This document shows positions 35,118 to 44,663 of a DNA stretch of 64,000 bases, piece after piece; the first letter of the stretch is position 1; the number at the start of each line of letters is the position of its first letter. The notes below the pieces were generated by a model. The model was not told where the DNA came from, did no database searches, and saw only the letters and a list, made by a program, of their open reading frames with translations. The position numbers were made by a program, and so were the translations under genes. Source of the DNA: Acidaminobacter hydrogenoformans DSM 2784 (lineage in GTDB: Bacteria; Bacillota; Clostridia; Peptostreptococcales; Acidaminobacteraceae); the NCBI RefSeq assembly GCF_900103005.1, contig NZ_FMWL01000001.1, positions 248,001 through 312,000 on the forward strand, written 5' to 3'.

Positions 35118-35169
35118 ACATTGAAGTTGCGGTATAATCGAAACAGAACATATGTTTCTTTTTGTGTCT

Positions 35170-35187
35170 GGTCGGGGACAGGCACTC
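35170..35187 (+). repeat. Family B dispersed repeat, single copy
   Basis: GGTCGGGGACAGGCACTC, about 35 bases upstream of the radical SAM start codon. Confidence 0.55.
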
Positions 35188-35223
35188 CCTGCAAAAAGTC
35201 CTTTTTATCAAGGAGGTTTCTTC

Positions 35224-36522
35224 ATGGAATGGCAGAAAAAGCTTGAAATTCTCGCAGACAGCGCGAAATATGACGTCTCTTGCTCCTCCAGCGGAGCCTC
35301 CAGGGGAAAGAGCCAGGGGCTCCTGGGGACCGCTGCTGCCGCAGGGATCTGCCACAGCTGGTCAGAGGATGGCCGCTGCATTTCGCTGCTCAAAATATTG
35401 ATGACCAACGTCTGCATCTACGACTGCGCCTACTGCGTCAACCGGGTGTCCAGCGATGTACCCCGGGCTACCTTGACGCCTTCTGAGATTGTGGATCTGA
35501 CGCTCAATTTTTACCGACGAAATTATATAGAAGGCCTGTTCCTCAGCAGTGCGGTCCTCGTGAGTCCCGACTATACCATGGAGCGGATGGTTGAGGTCGT
35601 AAGGCGCCTCAGGACCGAAGGGCGCTTCAACGGTTATGTTCATCTGAAAGCAATCCCGGGGGCAGATCCCCGCTTGATCGCAGAAGCCGGCCGCTATGCG
35701 GACCGGATGAGCCTCAACATTGAGCTGCCCACTAAAAGGAGTCTGAATCTGCTGGCACCGGACAAAAATCCTGATACCATCACGGCACCTATGGCTCAAA
35801 TTCGTAATACTATCCTGGAAACACGTTCAGACCAAAACAGATTCAAGAGCGCGCCCTCTTTCGTACCCGCCGGTCAAACTACTCAGATGATTGTTGGCGC
35901 TACAGGGGAAACAGACCACCTTTTGTTGAATCTCACCGAAAAGCTCTACCAGCGTTATGCGCTGAAACGCGTTTACTTCTCTGCCTACGTCCCCGTGGTT
36001 CAGAATCACCCAGTGCTTCCCGGCCAGGTAGCGCATCCCATGCTGAGAGAGCATAGACTTTACCAGGCAGACTGGCTGCTGCGGTTTTACGGCTATACCG
36101 CTGGTGAGCTGCTGGACGACCTAAACCCACAGCTGGACCTGGAGCTGGATCCCAAGTGCCAGTGGGCGCTGAGACATCCTGAGCAGTTTCCAGTGGAAAT
36201 CAACAAAGCAGATCTCATGACACTGTTGAGAGTGCCCGGAATAGGCCCTGTCTCTGCCAGACGCATCCTCAAATCCAGGCGCTTCAGCGCGCTCAGGGCA
36301 GAGGATCTGAAAGGACTTGGCGTCGTCATGAAGCGCGCCAAATACTTTATTCAGTGCAGCGGCAAACGCGTTGAAACCTTAAACTATGAAACCCGGATCC
36401 TGCGGCCCCTTTTGGTCCGGGAAGAGCCACTGAAGCTCCAAGTCCCCTCTTCCCAGATTTCTTTTTTCGACATTAATCCAGGTCTTTGGATTCCTCCTGC
36501 AAAAGAGGTGATTGTCACATGA
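35224..36522 (+). CDS. Putative DNA modification/repair radical SAM protein (TIGR03916 type)
   Basis: 432 residues. Start ATG 35224 after AAGGAGG. The radical SAM cluster is CIYDCAYC, preceded by SCSSSGASRGKSQG-like residues; a helix-hairpin-helix VPGIGPVSARRIL near residue 345 suggests DNA binding. The family is always paired with the DUF4130 protein that follows, with which it overlaps by ATGA. The damage or modification it acts on is not known. Confidence 0.87.
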   Translation: MEWQKKLEILADSAKYDVSCSSSGASRGKSQGLLGTAAAAGICHSWSEDGRCISLLKILMTNVCIYDCAYCVNRVSSDVPRATLTPSEIVDLTLNFYRRNYIEGLFLSSAVLVSPDYTMERMVEVVRRLRTEGRFNGYVHLKAIPGADPRLIAEAGRYADRMSLNIELPTKRSLNLLAPDKNPDTITAPMAQIRNTILETRSDQNRFKSAPSFVPAGQTTQMIVGATGETDHLLLNLTEKLYQRYALKRVYFSAYVPVVQNHPVLPGQVAHPMLREHRLYQADWLLRFYGYTAGELLDDLNPQLDLELDPKCQWALRHPEQFPVEINKADLMTLLRVPGIGPVSARRILKSRRFSALRAEDLKGLGVVMKRAKYFIQCSGKRVETLNYETRILRPLLVREEPLKLQVPSSQISFFDINPGLWIPPAKEVIVT

Positions 36523-37256
36523 TGCAGCTGTTTCTTTACGACGGCAGCTTTGAGGGATTGATGTGCGCCATTGCGGCCGCATACAAGGTCAAAGGCGACG
36601 TTGCTGTACACAAAAAAGATGACCCCGTGCCTTTGCTCCTCGCCCAGGTGCAGGAAGTCCAAACGGACAGCACTCAGGCAGGCAAAGTCATAGAAGCCAT
36701 AGTTCAAAAACTTGGCATGGAAACCTTCAAGAGAGTTTCCTACGCCTATTTCAGCGAAGCTCCGGAGATTGGCACCGGGCTGCTTCATTTCTTGAGATAT
36801 GCATTCAAAACCGGGCCTTCAGCTGTAGATCATTTGGCCCATCCTATAGTAAAACCTGTCTTTGAAGCTGCCAGACGCGTCACCCGGGAAGTCCACCTGA
36901 TGACGGGGCTATTGCGCTTTTCTGAAACGCGCTCAGGCATCTTCTACGGCGCCTATGAGCCAACCTATGACATTACGACCCTCCTCGCGCCTCACTTCGC
37001 AAGCCGGCTTGGAGATCAGACCTGGGTGCTGCATGACGTCAAGAGACACCTCGCTGCCTTTTACGACCAAAAAACCTGGTGGCTGGCAGAGCTCGAGCCC
37101 ACAGCGCAGTCCTATTCTGATGCCGAGGATTTCTATCGATCCCTGTGGCAGACCTATTTCACGCATATAGCCATTCAAAGCAGAATCAGCGCGCGGCGTC
37201 AGCAGCAGCACATGCCTAAGAAATACTGGAAGTATTTGGTGGAGATAAAGGCTTAG
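36519..37256 (+). CDS. TIGR03915 family putative DNA repair protein (DUF4130)
   Basis: 245 residues. Family features: FLYDGSFEGLMCAI at the start, VDHLAHPIV, REVHLMTGLLRF and MPKKYWKYLVE at the C-terminus. Partner of the radical SAM protein; it has a uracil-DNA-glycosylase-like relative in eukaryotic-type fusions, but its own reaction is unproven. Start at ATG 36519 (or ATG 36522), with AAAGAGGTG upstream. Confidence 0.85.
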   Translation: MMQLFLYDGSFEGLMCAIAAAYKVKGDVAVHKKDDPVPLLLAQVQEVQTDSTQAGKVIEAIVQKLGMETFKRVSYAYFSEAPEIGTGLLHFLRYAFKTGPSAVDHLAHPIVKPVFEAARRVTREVHLMTGLLRFSETRSGIFYGAYEPTYDITTLLAPHFASRLGDQTWVLHDVKRHLAAFYDQKTWWLAELEPTAQSYSDAEDFYRSLWQTYFTHIAIQSRISARRQQQHMPKKYWKYLVEIKA

Positions 37257-39439: not shown

Positions 39440-40549
39440 TTATTCAGTTTCCACAGCACTCTTACTGGCTTTGCCGGCCATGATTCTGCGGGCAGATCTG
39501 ACGAGCATGATCGCGAGCAAGAAAATACCGACATAACCATTGATGACATAGATAATATTGACGAGTCTGTCAAACGGTACTCTCAGGCCTACGAAAACGC
39601 CAACAGCTGCTAAAATGCCTGTCATAATTGTAAAGCGCTTGGTCTTCTCCTCTGAGAATCTGGCAATAACTGACCAGAGAAGAGGGACAGATGTCGTATA
39701 AATTCCCGCGATAACCGTCAGGGAGAAGATGATGGCAAGTGTCGGATGGATATTACCCGCGAGGATCAAGGAAGGTACTTGAGTGCCTGCAACCTGATCG
39801 ACGTTAGCCATGAGGCCCAGCGCCATGATGATGACGGCAAGTGAGAAGCCTACTGCGCCAAAGATAGCGCCCATGCTGGCTTCCTTGCGGCTCTTAGCCG
39901 AAGCGCCCATAGAAGCCATAAACGCTGCCAGCCACAACATACAGAAGCCTACATAGGAGCCTGCTGCGTAAACCCAGTTGCTTGACGCCTTCAGAAGATT
40001 CATGGAAGGGATCGCCGCAGAGGCTTTAGCAAGGCCGCCCGGATTCTGAATGATGGCTGCGAGACCCAGGAAGATCGCCATGACCGTGATGACCGGCCCA
40101 ATCTTTCCAATGACATCCACAATGCCCTTAAGGCCAAAGACCACTGTAGTCGCCGCCAAAATGCCGAGGCCAATGCCGCCGACTTCAATTGGAAGGCCAT
40201 ACTGCTGGTTGAGCGTCGCACCAGCACCGCCTACCATAACTATAAAAGACATATAAATGAACGCAATAGAAAAGTAATCGAAGAACTTGCCTATGTATTT
40301 TCCGCAGTAATGCTCGTATATCTCACTGCCTTTATGGAACTTTTGGTCAAACCCTGTGGTGATGAAGCTGATTCCAACGTAGAGGAACAAAAGAAAGACT
40401 ACAATTGCACCCAAAATGCCTTTGAATCCATAGGCTACAAAGTACTGCATGATTTCTTGTCCGGTAGCGAAGCCAGATCCAATCAGGAACGCTATGAACG
40501 CGCCGGCGTAAATCGTAATCGTTTTAATGCTGAGCTTTTGCTCTGACAT
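39440..40549 (-). CDS. YkvI family membrane transporter
   Basis: 369 residues, about ten helices, APC/BCCT-like start (IYAGAFIAFLIGSGFATGQEIMQYF). The family lacks a proven substrate. It follows the component B genes on the same strand with no terminator between, so it is probably the importer for the substrate of that reductase (betaine, sarcosine or a related amine). ATG after GGAGGTG. Confidence 0.82.
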   Translation of the reverse strand: MSEQKLSIKTITIYAGAFIAFLIGSGFATGQEIMQYFVAYGFKGILGAIVVFLLFLYVGISFITTGFDQKFHKGSEIYEHYCGKYIGKFFDYFSIAFIYMSFIVMVGGAGATLNQQYGLPIEVGGIGLGILAATTVVFGLKGIVDVIGKIGPVITVMAIFLGLAAIIQNPGGLAKASAAIPSMNLLKASSNWVYAAGSYVGFCMLWLAAFMASMGASAKSRKEASMGAIFGAVGFSLAVIIMALGLMANVDQVAGTQVPSLILAGNIHPTLAIIFSLTVIAGIYTTSVPLLWSVIARFSEEKTKRFTIMTGILAAVGVFVGLRVPFDRLVNIIYVINGYVGIFLLAIMLVRSARRIMAGKASKSAVETE

Positions 40550-40662: not shown

Positions 40663-41970
40663 CTATTCGAATATAGTGATATCTTCGACAGACGTACCAA
40701 GTGCCTTGACGGCACGTACGACGAGTTCTCTTCTAAGCGCTTCTTCGCCAGGACCTGCAATACTAGGATTGCCAACCGGGTAAGGAATAGCAATTGTAGG
40801 GACGATACGATTCGCGCCTACCGCTTGAGAAATAGTTGTGATTGTGGACATATGGATTATTGGAATGCCAAAGCGTTCAATTTCTTTAACCATCGTTGCA
40901 CCGCAACGAGTACAGGTGCCTCACGTCGAGGTGAGGATAACGCCATCCACGCCGGCAGCTTTCAATTCCGCGCCAATCTCTTTACCAAAAGTCAAGGCGT
41001 TGCCAACGGAAGTTCCCGTTCCGGTTGTCGTATAGAAGTAGTCATAAACCTTGCCAATGGCGCCTTCCTTCTCAAGAGTTTTGAGAACGTCCAGAGGTGC
41101 GACGCGGTCAGGAATTTCATTCGCGTACACAGGGTCGTAACCGCCGTGGATCGTATAATAATCGCCTACAAGGGCTGAAGCAGTTGAAATGTCATATTTG
41201 CCCCACTTCTGAGCACTTGCAGATTGAATTCTGTCCGGATTGCCGTTTGGCACGATCCCGCCGCTGGTAACGAGCGCGATCGTCGCCTTGGAAAGATCTT
41301 TGATAGCCAAAGCTGGATCGACGCGGTCAAATTGCGGCATAGGAAGCTCTGTCTCGAAAGGCTGGTCATTCAAGCGAGCGAGGAGCATTTCAACTGCTCT
41401 CTTGGAGCCGCGCTTGTCAGAAAAGACCGTAAGACGGCGTCCCTGAGGAATGTACCCTTCAACTTCAGGGGCATCGAGTTCTTCGCCTTTAACGAGCTTG
41501 CGCGCGATTTTCGCCATAGTTGGAAGCGCGGTTCTCATACCAGCTGCTGAGTCAGGGGTACTGACAACGATGACTTTGCTAAGGCAAGTATCAAGACCCG
41601 GGTTCTCGATATACATACCAGTAAGGGTAGGAATTCCGAGTTCCTCTGTGACTTTGGCAGCAATTTCGCCGCAAGCCATGCCGTAACGGCCAGCGTTGAA
41701 CGCAGGGCCTGTAACAACAAGGTCAGGCTGTACTTTCTTGATGGTATCCATGATGAAAGCAAATGCTTCCGCATTGTGCTCGTTGAAATAGTTGTCGCCG
41801 CAAACCAGGGTTCCTACGACAGTGCCCTCGCCCTCCAGCAGGCCTTCGAAGCCGCCGGCAGGACCAATTTTTTCTTCTTTATAGAATGGCTCAATGCCGG
41901 CTTTTTCTTCGCCGCCGACTTGTCCAAAGAATTGGTTGACATAGTATAGTACTTTAAATGGACTGGACAT
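40663..41970 (-). CDS. Glycine/sarcosine/betaine reductase component B, selenoprotein subunit
   Basis: The reading frame runs through an in-frame TGA at 40923-40921, which encodes selenocysteine in the motif U-GT-C-TR-C (UxxCxxC). Total length is 435 residues, as in GrdB/GrdF/GrdI. Residues before it include NYFNEHNAEAFAF, TGPAFNAGRYGMACG and DYFYTTTGTGTSVGNAL. With the pyruvoyl subunit it binds the substrate amine and transfers a carboxymethyl group to the GrdA selenocysteine. ATG after AGAGGAGG. grdA, grdC and grdD are absent here. Its pairing directly behind the alpha/beta gene is like grdGF or grdHI, so sarcosine or betaine is likelier than glycine. Confidence 0.93.
40894..40923 (-). promoter_or_regulatory. 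UGA selenocysteine codon and bacterial SECIS hairpin
   Basis: Twelve bases after UGA comes CGTTGC-GGT-GCAACG, a six-base-pair hairpin whose apical loop starts with GG and lies 18 bases from UGA, within the bSECIS consensus. Confidence 0.85.
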
Positions 41971-41991: not shown

Positions 41992-43278
41992 TTAGTAAAG
42001 TTTAACGGTGCAGTTGTGGTAGCCAATCTCAGAAGTCGCGCCAATAACAGCGTTCAGTTCACACTTGATGGCGCCGTCCTCAGAGAGGGATCCTTCCCAG
42101 CCGCCAGCAAGCGTTGAGATTGCTTTAGCGCTGCCAATGACCTTGTCAGCTGGCTCGAGCGTGACGACGTGGCTGACGTTGCCCGCGGATACGACGGCGA
42201 CTGCCTCCTTCGTCGTGTCTGCAAGAGGCTGAGACATGCCATCCCAACCGGAGCATTCATCTGTGATCAGGACCGTCTTGATGCCGTCTTTTTCGAGACG
42301 CTTACAAATCATCAGGAGGTCGGAGTCCGGGTTGCCGTAGCCTTCCTCGGAGACGATGACACCATTGGCACCCATCATTTTACAAAGCTTTGCAGTATAG
42401 TCGCAAGTTCTGAACTTGCCTTCGAGTGTCGTCAGCTCTGGTGTGAGGATGACGCCCAGGAAGTTGATCGTCTTGCCGTGCTCTGCGTAGAGGTCGAGGA
42501 TTGCGGAGTTGTTTTGGTGCTGGTATGTAGTGATTTTGTCACAAGCCGCAACGCAGTTGCCACTGATGACCGCGCCGTCGAGCTCTTCGTTTGCGTGGAT
42601 GAGCGTAGGCAGGATCTTCTGGCTGTTAACGCCATAAATGTAACCGTCGTGGAGAAGGCCTTGGGAGATCAGCATCTCGACGTAGAGAACTTTAGGGAGG
42701 TTAGGGTACTTCGCGCTTTCTTCAGCGTGGTTGCCCATTTCGAAGACTTCGACTTTATCAGGCTCTGCATTGCGTCCGGCCTCGCCAATAATTTCTGCAG
42801 CCTTAAGGCCAGCGAGTCGGACTGTTTCTTCGTGGACGTGTGGCTCAAGGCCTTCATTAGGAATGATATCCACAACAATGTTGAATGTCTTGGAGAACGG
42901 TGTCCACTTGGCGCCTTCGCCCCACATGTCCACAACGCCTTCCTGGAAACCGACAATGTCCCCAATTGTTACAACAGCTGCGCCGTCAAGAACATTGACT
43001 TTGCCGTCGCCCAGCTGAACCATTTTGCCAGTGACGCCCGGGAAGCCTTTGCCTTCCCCTTCGATCTTGACGCGAGGCTCAATGACGTCCTTGACCGGGA
43101 TAATTCTGGTCTTTTCGCCTGGCTTCGCAAGGTCGATTTTGATTTCCTTGACTCTGTGGTCTTCCATGAGTTTTGCAACAACTTGATCCTTGTTGATGGT
43201 CAGAACGCCACCGTTGACTTCCATTTTTTCGCCGAATACGACATCTTTGATTTGGATTTTTCTAAGCTCGAGTTTCAA
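41992..43278 (-). CDS. Glycine/sarcosine/betaine reductase component B, alpha/beta proprotein
   Basis: 428 residues. The start TTG 43278 is chosen because GGAGG lies eight bases before it and the family begins MKLEL; a GTG three codons earlier sits too close to the binding site. The proprotein is cut before Cys242 (SGN-CVAACD), which becomes a pyruvoyl group that captures the amine substrate as a Schiff base. Numbering from the TTG start puts this cysteine at 242, as in GrdE. Overlaps grdX by 17 bases and precedes the selenoprotein gene by 21. Confidence 0.9.
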   Translation of the reverse strand: MKLELRKIQIKDVVFGEKMEVNGGVLTINKDQVVAKLMEDHRVKEIKIDLAKPGEKTRIIPVKDVIEPRVKIEGEGKGFPGVTGKMVQLGDGKVNVLDGAAVVTIGDIVGFQEGVVDMWGEGAKWTPFSKTFNIVVDIIPNEGLEPHVHEETVRLAGLKAAEIIGEAGRNAEPDKVEVFEMGNHAEESAKYPNLPKVLYVEMLISQGLLHDGYIYGVNSQKILPTLIHANEELDGAVISGNCVAACDKITTYQHQNNSAILDLYAEHGKTINFLGVILTPELTTLEGKFRTCDYTAKLCKMMGANGVIVSEEGYGNPDSDLLMICKRLEKDGIKTVLITDECSGWDGMSQPLADTTKEAVAVVSAGNVSHVVTLEPADKVIGSAKAISTLAGGWEGSLSEDGAIKCELNAVIGATSEIGYHNCTVKLY

Positions 43279-43681
43279 GAAATTCACCTCCGGTAAATTG
43301 TGAATAGTTCTGTAGCCTTATATCTTCATAAGCCTGGATAGAGGCTTTTAGAAGCTCTTTGTCCACCACCGCGTAATCCTTTTCGTGCTGTGGCTCGGCA
43401 TTTCGCCGGTCAGTAAGGGTTCTGTAGTTCAGGATGCTCTGCTCAATGAGCAGGATTTGGTCTGTATTCATATGGCCCGGCTCTGTGCCGACCAGGATGG
43501 ATCTGTAAGGTGAAAGCAACATTCTGATACTGGCGCCAAGTGGGCTGTCAATCAGTTCAATGCCGGCATGGACCAGGTCTCTTACTTTAATAAGGACATC
43601 CTCATAGCTTCCCTCGATAAATATAACGTTGTCATAGCTGTCTCTTACCAAAGGATTGTTCGTAACGATGCGGTGGGACAT
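43262..43681 (-). CDS. grdX: GrdX family protein
   Basis: 139 residues. Starts with the family motif IVTNNPLV and has VIFIEGSYEDVLIKVRDLVHAGIELIDSPL and SIRMLLSPYRSILV. GrdX is found at the start of reductase operons in Stickland clostridia; its role is unknown. ATG after AGAGGAGG. Heads the grdX, alpha/beta, selenoprotein, ykvI unit. Confidence 0.9.
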   Translation of the reverse strand: MSHRIVTNNPLVRDSYDNVIFIEGSYEDVLIKVRDLVHAGIELIDSPLGASIRMLLSPYRSILVGTEPGHMNTDQILLIEQSILNYRTLTDRRNAEPQHEKDYAVVDKELLKASIQAYEDIRLQNYSQFTGGEFLETRA

Positions 43682-44024: not shown

Positions 44025-44663
44025 TTAGAGCATCTCTTTTTTGATTTTTTCTACAAATTCATCAATATGTTGTCGAGAACTGCGCTCCGCTTTTTCAAAA
44101 TCACGCTCTTTCAAGGCTTCCAGCATTTCTCCAAGAGTATCTGTGAAAATGTTGATGCTGTCGATATATTGCTCGGAATAATGCCACATTCTCTCAGTCT
44201 GCATGTGCAGCTTTGAGAGGATTTCCGCAAGGGCAGGGTTCCCGCTGCTCTCGAGGACGGTTTTGTGAAAAATCTCGTCGTCATCAATGGCCTTTTGATA
44301 GTCCTCGGGAATCTTATAGGTTTGGAGCCGCCCCATAATCTCTTCGAGTTTCGCAATTTGATACGGCTGAATACGCTCCACAGCGAGGCGTGCAGCGAAT
44401 GGATCCAGCTGACGTGTCACCTCAAAGATAGATTTCATTTTTCTGAAGTCTACAGCGGTGACTTGTGCGCCGTAACGTGGAATGATGTTTAGAAGGTTGT
44501 CCGCGTTCAGCTGCTGGAATACCTTGCGAATGGGTGTACGGCTAACCCCAAATTCTTCAGCAAGTTCTTCCTCGTTCAGGACTAACCCAGGTTCATATTC
44601 GAGATGAATGACCCGGTCCCTCAGGATTTCATAGATATCTTCGGCTTTGTAGGACTTCTCCAT
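44025..44663 (-). CDS. GntR family regulator, FCD (FadR-type) domain
   Basis: 212 residues. Winged helix LNEEELAEEFGVSRTPIRKVFQQL, followed by an all-helical FCD domain with metal-ligand candidates FDPFAARLAV, DDEIFHKTVLE and SRQHIDEF. FCD regulators sense small carboxylates or amino acids. The adjacent, co-oriented reductase operon is the obvious target, but this is inference. Confidence 0.88.
   Translation of the reverse strand: MEKSYKAEDIYEILRDRVIHLEYEPGLVLNEEELAEEFGVSRTPIRKVFQQLNADNLLNIIPRYGAQVTAVDFRKMKSIFEVTRQLDPFAARLAVERIQPYQIAKLEEIMGRLQTYKIPEDYQKAIDDDEIFHKTVLESSGNPALAEILSKLHMQTERMWHYSEQYIDSINIFTDTLGEMLEALKERDFEKAERSSRQHIDEFVEKIKKEML

Follow-up and report, generated by a model that had tools for sequence, protein, structure and literature searches.

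The gene on the minus strand at positions 40663-41970 of the window, by which we mean the whole 64,000-nucleotide stretch analysed here, is with near certainty a standard bacterial selenoprotein gene. To judge from its sequence, it would provide the GrdB-type substrate-specific subunit B for a complex of the glycine reductase family, in a species of the Clostridia that is close to Acidaminobacter and ferments amino acids. GrdB has been known as a selenoprotein family since the 1990s, and because the gene belongs to it the recoding of its UGA is expected and unsurprising. The preliminary description of this DNA had proposed selenocysteine (Sec) read-through, which is almost certainly right and of an already known kind. 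The gene is an ordinary one, as both the selenoprotein GrdB and the Rfam family of its selenocysteine insertion element (SECIS) are already known. Its scientific interest lies in the substrate of the GrdB clade to which the window copy belongs.

The reading frame runs from an ATG at 41970 down to the final stop at 40663 and is interrupted by a single TGA at codon 350 (40923-40921, minus strand). These are the coordinates given earlier, to which only the strand had to be added. Under translation table 11 alone, the frame ends at this TGA and leaves an open reading frame of 349 amino acids, so that 86 residues are lost; the split foreseen for a standard gene caller is what such a caller would produce. 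Read through, the gene encodes a 435-residue beta subunit (selenoprotein B) with a full-length match to TIGR01918 (623.6 bits, cut-off 65.45), the alignment spanning residues 6-435 and thereby the C-terminus beyond the TGA. A second match, to PF07355 (522.3 bits, cut-off 22), covers residues 5-349 only. All 85 codons past the TGA are open, in keeping with the intact frame described earlier; of 20000 base shuffles of this stretch, 201 (about 1%) remain open. The selenocysteine would be the first residue of UGTCTRC at residues 350-356, an instance of the UxxCxxC pattern that had been recognized before and that is listed as the GrdB motif in a review of prokaryotic selenoproteomes from 2026 (PMC13188914).

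Could the TGA be a true stop, leaving a pseudogene or a protein of only 349 residues? Both the table 11 frame and the extent of the PF07355 match would agree with this. We nevertheless consider it very improbable, since the frame past the TGA corresponds to the conserved C-terminus of the family, which TIGR01918 follows to residue 435, since all homologues examined have the TGA as well, and since the Rfam SECIS_4 match and the complete Sec machinery described below stand against it. In an alignment of GrdB genes, this codon is TGA in 44 of 44 and a Cys codon in none. The same holds for all 30 GrdB copies from 14 genomes, which are partly the same loci as those in the alignment. The absence of Cys agrees with an earlier published statement that, among organisms using Sec, Cys homologues of GrdA and GrdB are few or lacking (PMC1794560).

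Directly after the UGA, from its very next base, lies a SECIS_4 element (Rfam RF01990; 40883-40920, minus strand). All 38 positions of the model are matched with 66.5 bits (gathering score 38), and the element follows the consensus nearly letter for letter, the single difference being a C for U at position 3. Its apical hairpin, CGUUGC-GGU-GCAACG (40894-40908, minus strand), has a stem of 6 bp and a GGU loop; 12 nt separate the UGA from the stem and 18 nt separate it from the loop. The spacing is exactly as first reported for this hairpin, which in addition to the Rfam match is backed by codon constraint and one compensatory pair. General bacterial SECIS elements have been described as having a loop of 3-9 nt with a G in the first two positions, a stem of 4-16 bp, a distance of 16-37 nt from UGA to loop and a minimum free energy no higher than -7.5 kcal/mol (PMC13188914). 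In its loop (GGU, 3 nt), its stem (6 bp) and its distance from the UGA (18 nt), the window hairpin fits this description; by itself it reaches -6.7 kcal/mol against the threshold of -7.5. For the SECIS region of 41-47 nt, the minimum free energy is -9.3 to -10.4 kcal/mol, in a structure other than the SECIS hairpin, and the 47-nt region is no more stable than its shuffles in minimum-energy folding (z = -0.42). We therefore rejected single-sequence folding as proof of the hairpin. As minimum-energy folding does not single it out, the support is comparative, and this combination of Rfam match and codon constraint is strong. We regard the hairpin as real.

The codon constraint was measured as the probability that two sequences share the same codon at conserved four-fold or six-fold degenerate residues, using the 44 GrdB genes and 90 such columns. 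The top four of these 90 columns are codons 355, 358, 359 and 357, which form hairpin stem and loop, with same-codon probabilities of 0.95, 0.95, 0.78 and 0.65, respectively; four-fold columns average 0.33 and six-fold columns 0.30. At codon 356, which is also within the stem, all 44 genes have TGC. In the GrdB gene of Pyramidobacter sp. C12-8, the hairpin reads CGAUGC-GGU-GCAUCG, a compensatory change of a U-A to an A-U pair. The GrdB of this species is divergent, carries UGSCTRC and sits on a long branch, with a symporter of the sodium:neurotransmitter symporter (NSS) family and grdX downstream. One further stem string (TGAACT-TAA-GGCTGC, 1 of 44) proved to be a misplaced pattern match and no variant hairpin.

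A search of the genome, family by family, for Sec machinery and Grd genes places selA, selB, selD and the tRNA-Sec gene in one cluster on contig C25 at about 268.9-276.5 kb, all over their curated cut-offs. The scores are 631.2 bits for selA, 380.6 for selB and 403.3 for selD, which itself contains one TGA (read-through SGUAAKIGPE) and is the only full-scoring selD match in the genome. The tRNA-Sec (selC) reaches 70.5 bits and has the anticodon TCA/UCA according to ARAGORN. A second match on contig C38 scores 47.9 bits, which is above the tRNA-Sec gathering score; it is an ordinary tRNA-Ser and was rejected. It had been predicted that the organism must encode SelA, SelB, SelC and SelD, that none of these would lie in the window, and that a genome lacking Sec machinery would overturn the read-through. 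The first two statements are borne out, the genes being on C25 and the window on contig C19, and the complete selABCD set removes the third concern. The values listed for the assembly are 99.74% completeness and 5.01% contamination. C25 exceeds 400 kb and C19 reaches at least 386 kb; with contigs of this size, an origin from a foreign fragment is unlikely.

The same genes bear on the idea that UGA is reassigned or otherwise suppressed, for example read as Trp, without any selenocysteine. We found no point in its favour. Against it, the genome holds a tRNA-Sec with a UCA anticodon and a tRNA-Trp with a CCA anticodon, residue 350 is the redox position of UxxCxxC and is followed by a SECIS, and other window genes that use TGA as stop match their family models at full length. 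Such a reassignment is so improbable that we give it hardly any weight.

Insertion of selenocysteine thus remains our reading. SelB on the SECIS_4 hairpin just past the UGA would deliver Sec-tRNA(UCA), and the ribosome would insert selenocysteine at residue 350 as the first residue of the motif. The B component, formed by the window GrdB and its co-encoded alpha subunit, would then release the amine from its substrate and hand the carboxymethyl group to selenoprotein A (GrdA), from which GrdC and GrdD would convert it to acetyl phosphate. That bacteria insert Sec by means of SelB, a SECIS and Sec-tRNA is well established, and the genome has every one of these parts. The chemistry of the B component, from substrate binding and amine release to the transfer to GrdA and the formation of acetyl phosphate by GrdC and GrdD, is likewise known for the family.

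The partners expected for a GrdB protein are encoded in the genome as well: an alpha subunit, GrdA, GrdC and GrdD, the genes of the last two being partial at contig ends. In total there are four GrdB genes, each followed by a SECIS_4 element, four alpha subunits and two GrdA genes with one TGA apiece and the motif CFVU. A gene caller unaware of Sec would consequently leave at least seven truncated genes in this genome, namely four grdB, two grdA and selD. One grdB copy lies on contig C11 within a grdE-grdA-grdB-grdC locus and satisfies the glycine model TIGR01917 (767.7 bits, cut-off 602.2). There, grdC runs off the end of the contig (C11:31246), and only the C-terminal end of grdD is found, at the start of contig C9 (C9:7-204); the glycine reductase cluster has probably been split by an assembly break between the two. 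The window system presumably relies on the GrdA, GrdC and GrdD of this cluster as well. The remaining two GrdB copies, on C26 and C33, pass the betaine model NF040795 (822.8 and 812.6 bits, cut-off 775), and the one on C33 adjoins a gene for a BCCT betaine-type transporter. The second grdA with a TGA is located on C26 at about 75.25-75.69 kb, some 30 kb from the nearest grdB of the same contig and downstream of an ABC-transporter-like gene.

The window locus is organized as an operon on the minus strand. The beta subunit gene is preceded by a grdE/grdG-type alpha subunit (41992-43287), which matches the Gly_reductase family PF09338 and holds SGNCVAACD where its C11 glycine paralogue has SGNCVSACD, and by a grdX-family gene (43262-43681; NF038093, 107.4 bits, cut-off 40). 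Upstream of the operon lies a GntR/FCD transcriptional regulator (44025-44663, minus strand) that is kept in several relatives of the clade. Downstream of grdB, a multi-pass membrane transporter (39440-40549, minus strand) had neither a Pfam nor an NCBIfam match in the profile search; we take it to be YkvI-like. The nearest relative by sequence, Acidaminobacter sp. MAG4 with 93% identity, has the same order of GntR, grdX, alpha, beta and transporter.

Which substrate does this copy serve? In length, place of the UGA, UxxCxxC motif, SECIS and presence of an alpha subunit it resembles the clostridial glycine reductase GrdB (TIGR01917/TIGR01918), for which the Clostridium litorale grdAB genes are a reference (Kreimer and Andreesen 1995, as cited in PMC13188914). 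It differs in that it stays below the glycine cut-off (588.8 against 602.2 bits), lies away from grdA and has a separate glycine copy in the same genome. Among the three substrate-specific models, the one for sarcosine reductase GrdF (NF040794) gives the window beta subunit its best score, 604.9 bits, which is under the curated cut-off of 800; the alpha subunit matches the corresponding GrdG model NF040793 at full length, also under its cut-off (541.5 against 780 bits). The C11 glycine paralogue reaches 721.7 bits on the GrdF model, more than the window copy, so that this model fails to single the latter out. The betaine reductase GrdH, whose enzyme architecture is the same, has its two cut-off-passing copies elsewhere in the genome; the window GrdB scores 523.7 bits on that model (cut-off 775), and its locus has no adjoining BCCT betaine transporter. 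None of the NCBIfam cut-offs specific for glycine, sarcosine or betaine is reached by the window GrdB. A fluoroacetate reductase was also considered and rejected (FarE, 171 bits, cut-off 675). From what is known of the family, sarcosine would be a first guess as substrate.

A broader comparison places the window GrdB in a clade of its own. In a quick tree with SH-aLRT support, it falls among 35 rows, some of which are duplicate loci, that form a clade (SH-aLRT 99) apart from both the C11 glycine clade and the clade of the betaine copies. Among the genomes searched, this clade is present in Peptostreptococcus, Parvimonas, Tissierella and syntrophs, mostly beside a normal glycine-type copy. Near the grdB genes of the clade, a YkvI-like transporter occurs at 10 of 21 loci and an NSS protein at 8 of 21, one or the other being found at 17 of 21; loci of the betaine clade mostly have BCCT. 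These observations suggest that the window copy serves a small amino-acid-like substrate other than glycine or betaine. Its clade is a third one beside those of the glycine and betaine copies and is found in diverse Clostridia. Tentatively, and at less than even odds, its operon would pair the reductase with a YkvI-like or NSS amino-acid symporter, and its substrate would differ from glycine and betaine and possibly from sarcosine as well. The recoding of the UGA would still be ordinary if this were true.

The window copy might instead be a second glycine reductase B, with the same gene and Sec mechanism and no other substrate. Its score on the glycine model falls just short of the cut-off, one relative within the clade passes that cut-off (L030, 612.5 bits), and two genomes, those of Syntrophomonas zehnderi and of an uncultured Desulfosporosinus, have a clade member as the sole GrdB found, located with grdA, grdC and grdD. 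We consider this doubtful, as at least one further GrdB-family gene is present in 12 of the 14 clade-holding genomes searched, and in these 12 one copy lies on the tree side of the C11 glycine paralogue. The genome studied here already has its glycine copy in the grdE-grdA-grdB-grdC locus, and the window clade is set apart from the glycine clade in the tree and has symporter genes adjoining.

The YkvI-like transporter accompanies this GrdB clade in diverse Clostridia (loci L027, L028, L029, L035, L037, L042-L045 and L049), and other members have an NSS symporter in its place. Elsewhere in the window, a c-di-GMP-I-GGC riboswitch (RF03167, 71.4 bits) at 924-999 on the plus strand lies directly upstream of a transglutaminase-like gene (1012-1815). 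A further plus-strand segment, 35152-37256, encodes a radical SAM protein linked to a DNA-repair-like protein with DUF4130, a known conserved pair (TIGR03916 and TIGR03915).
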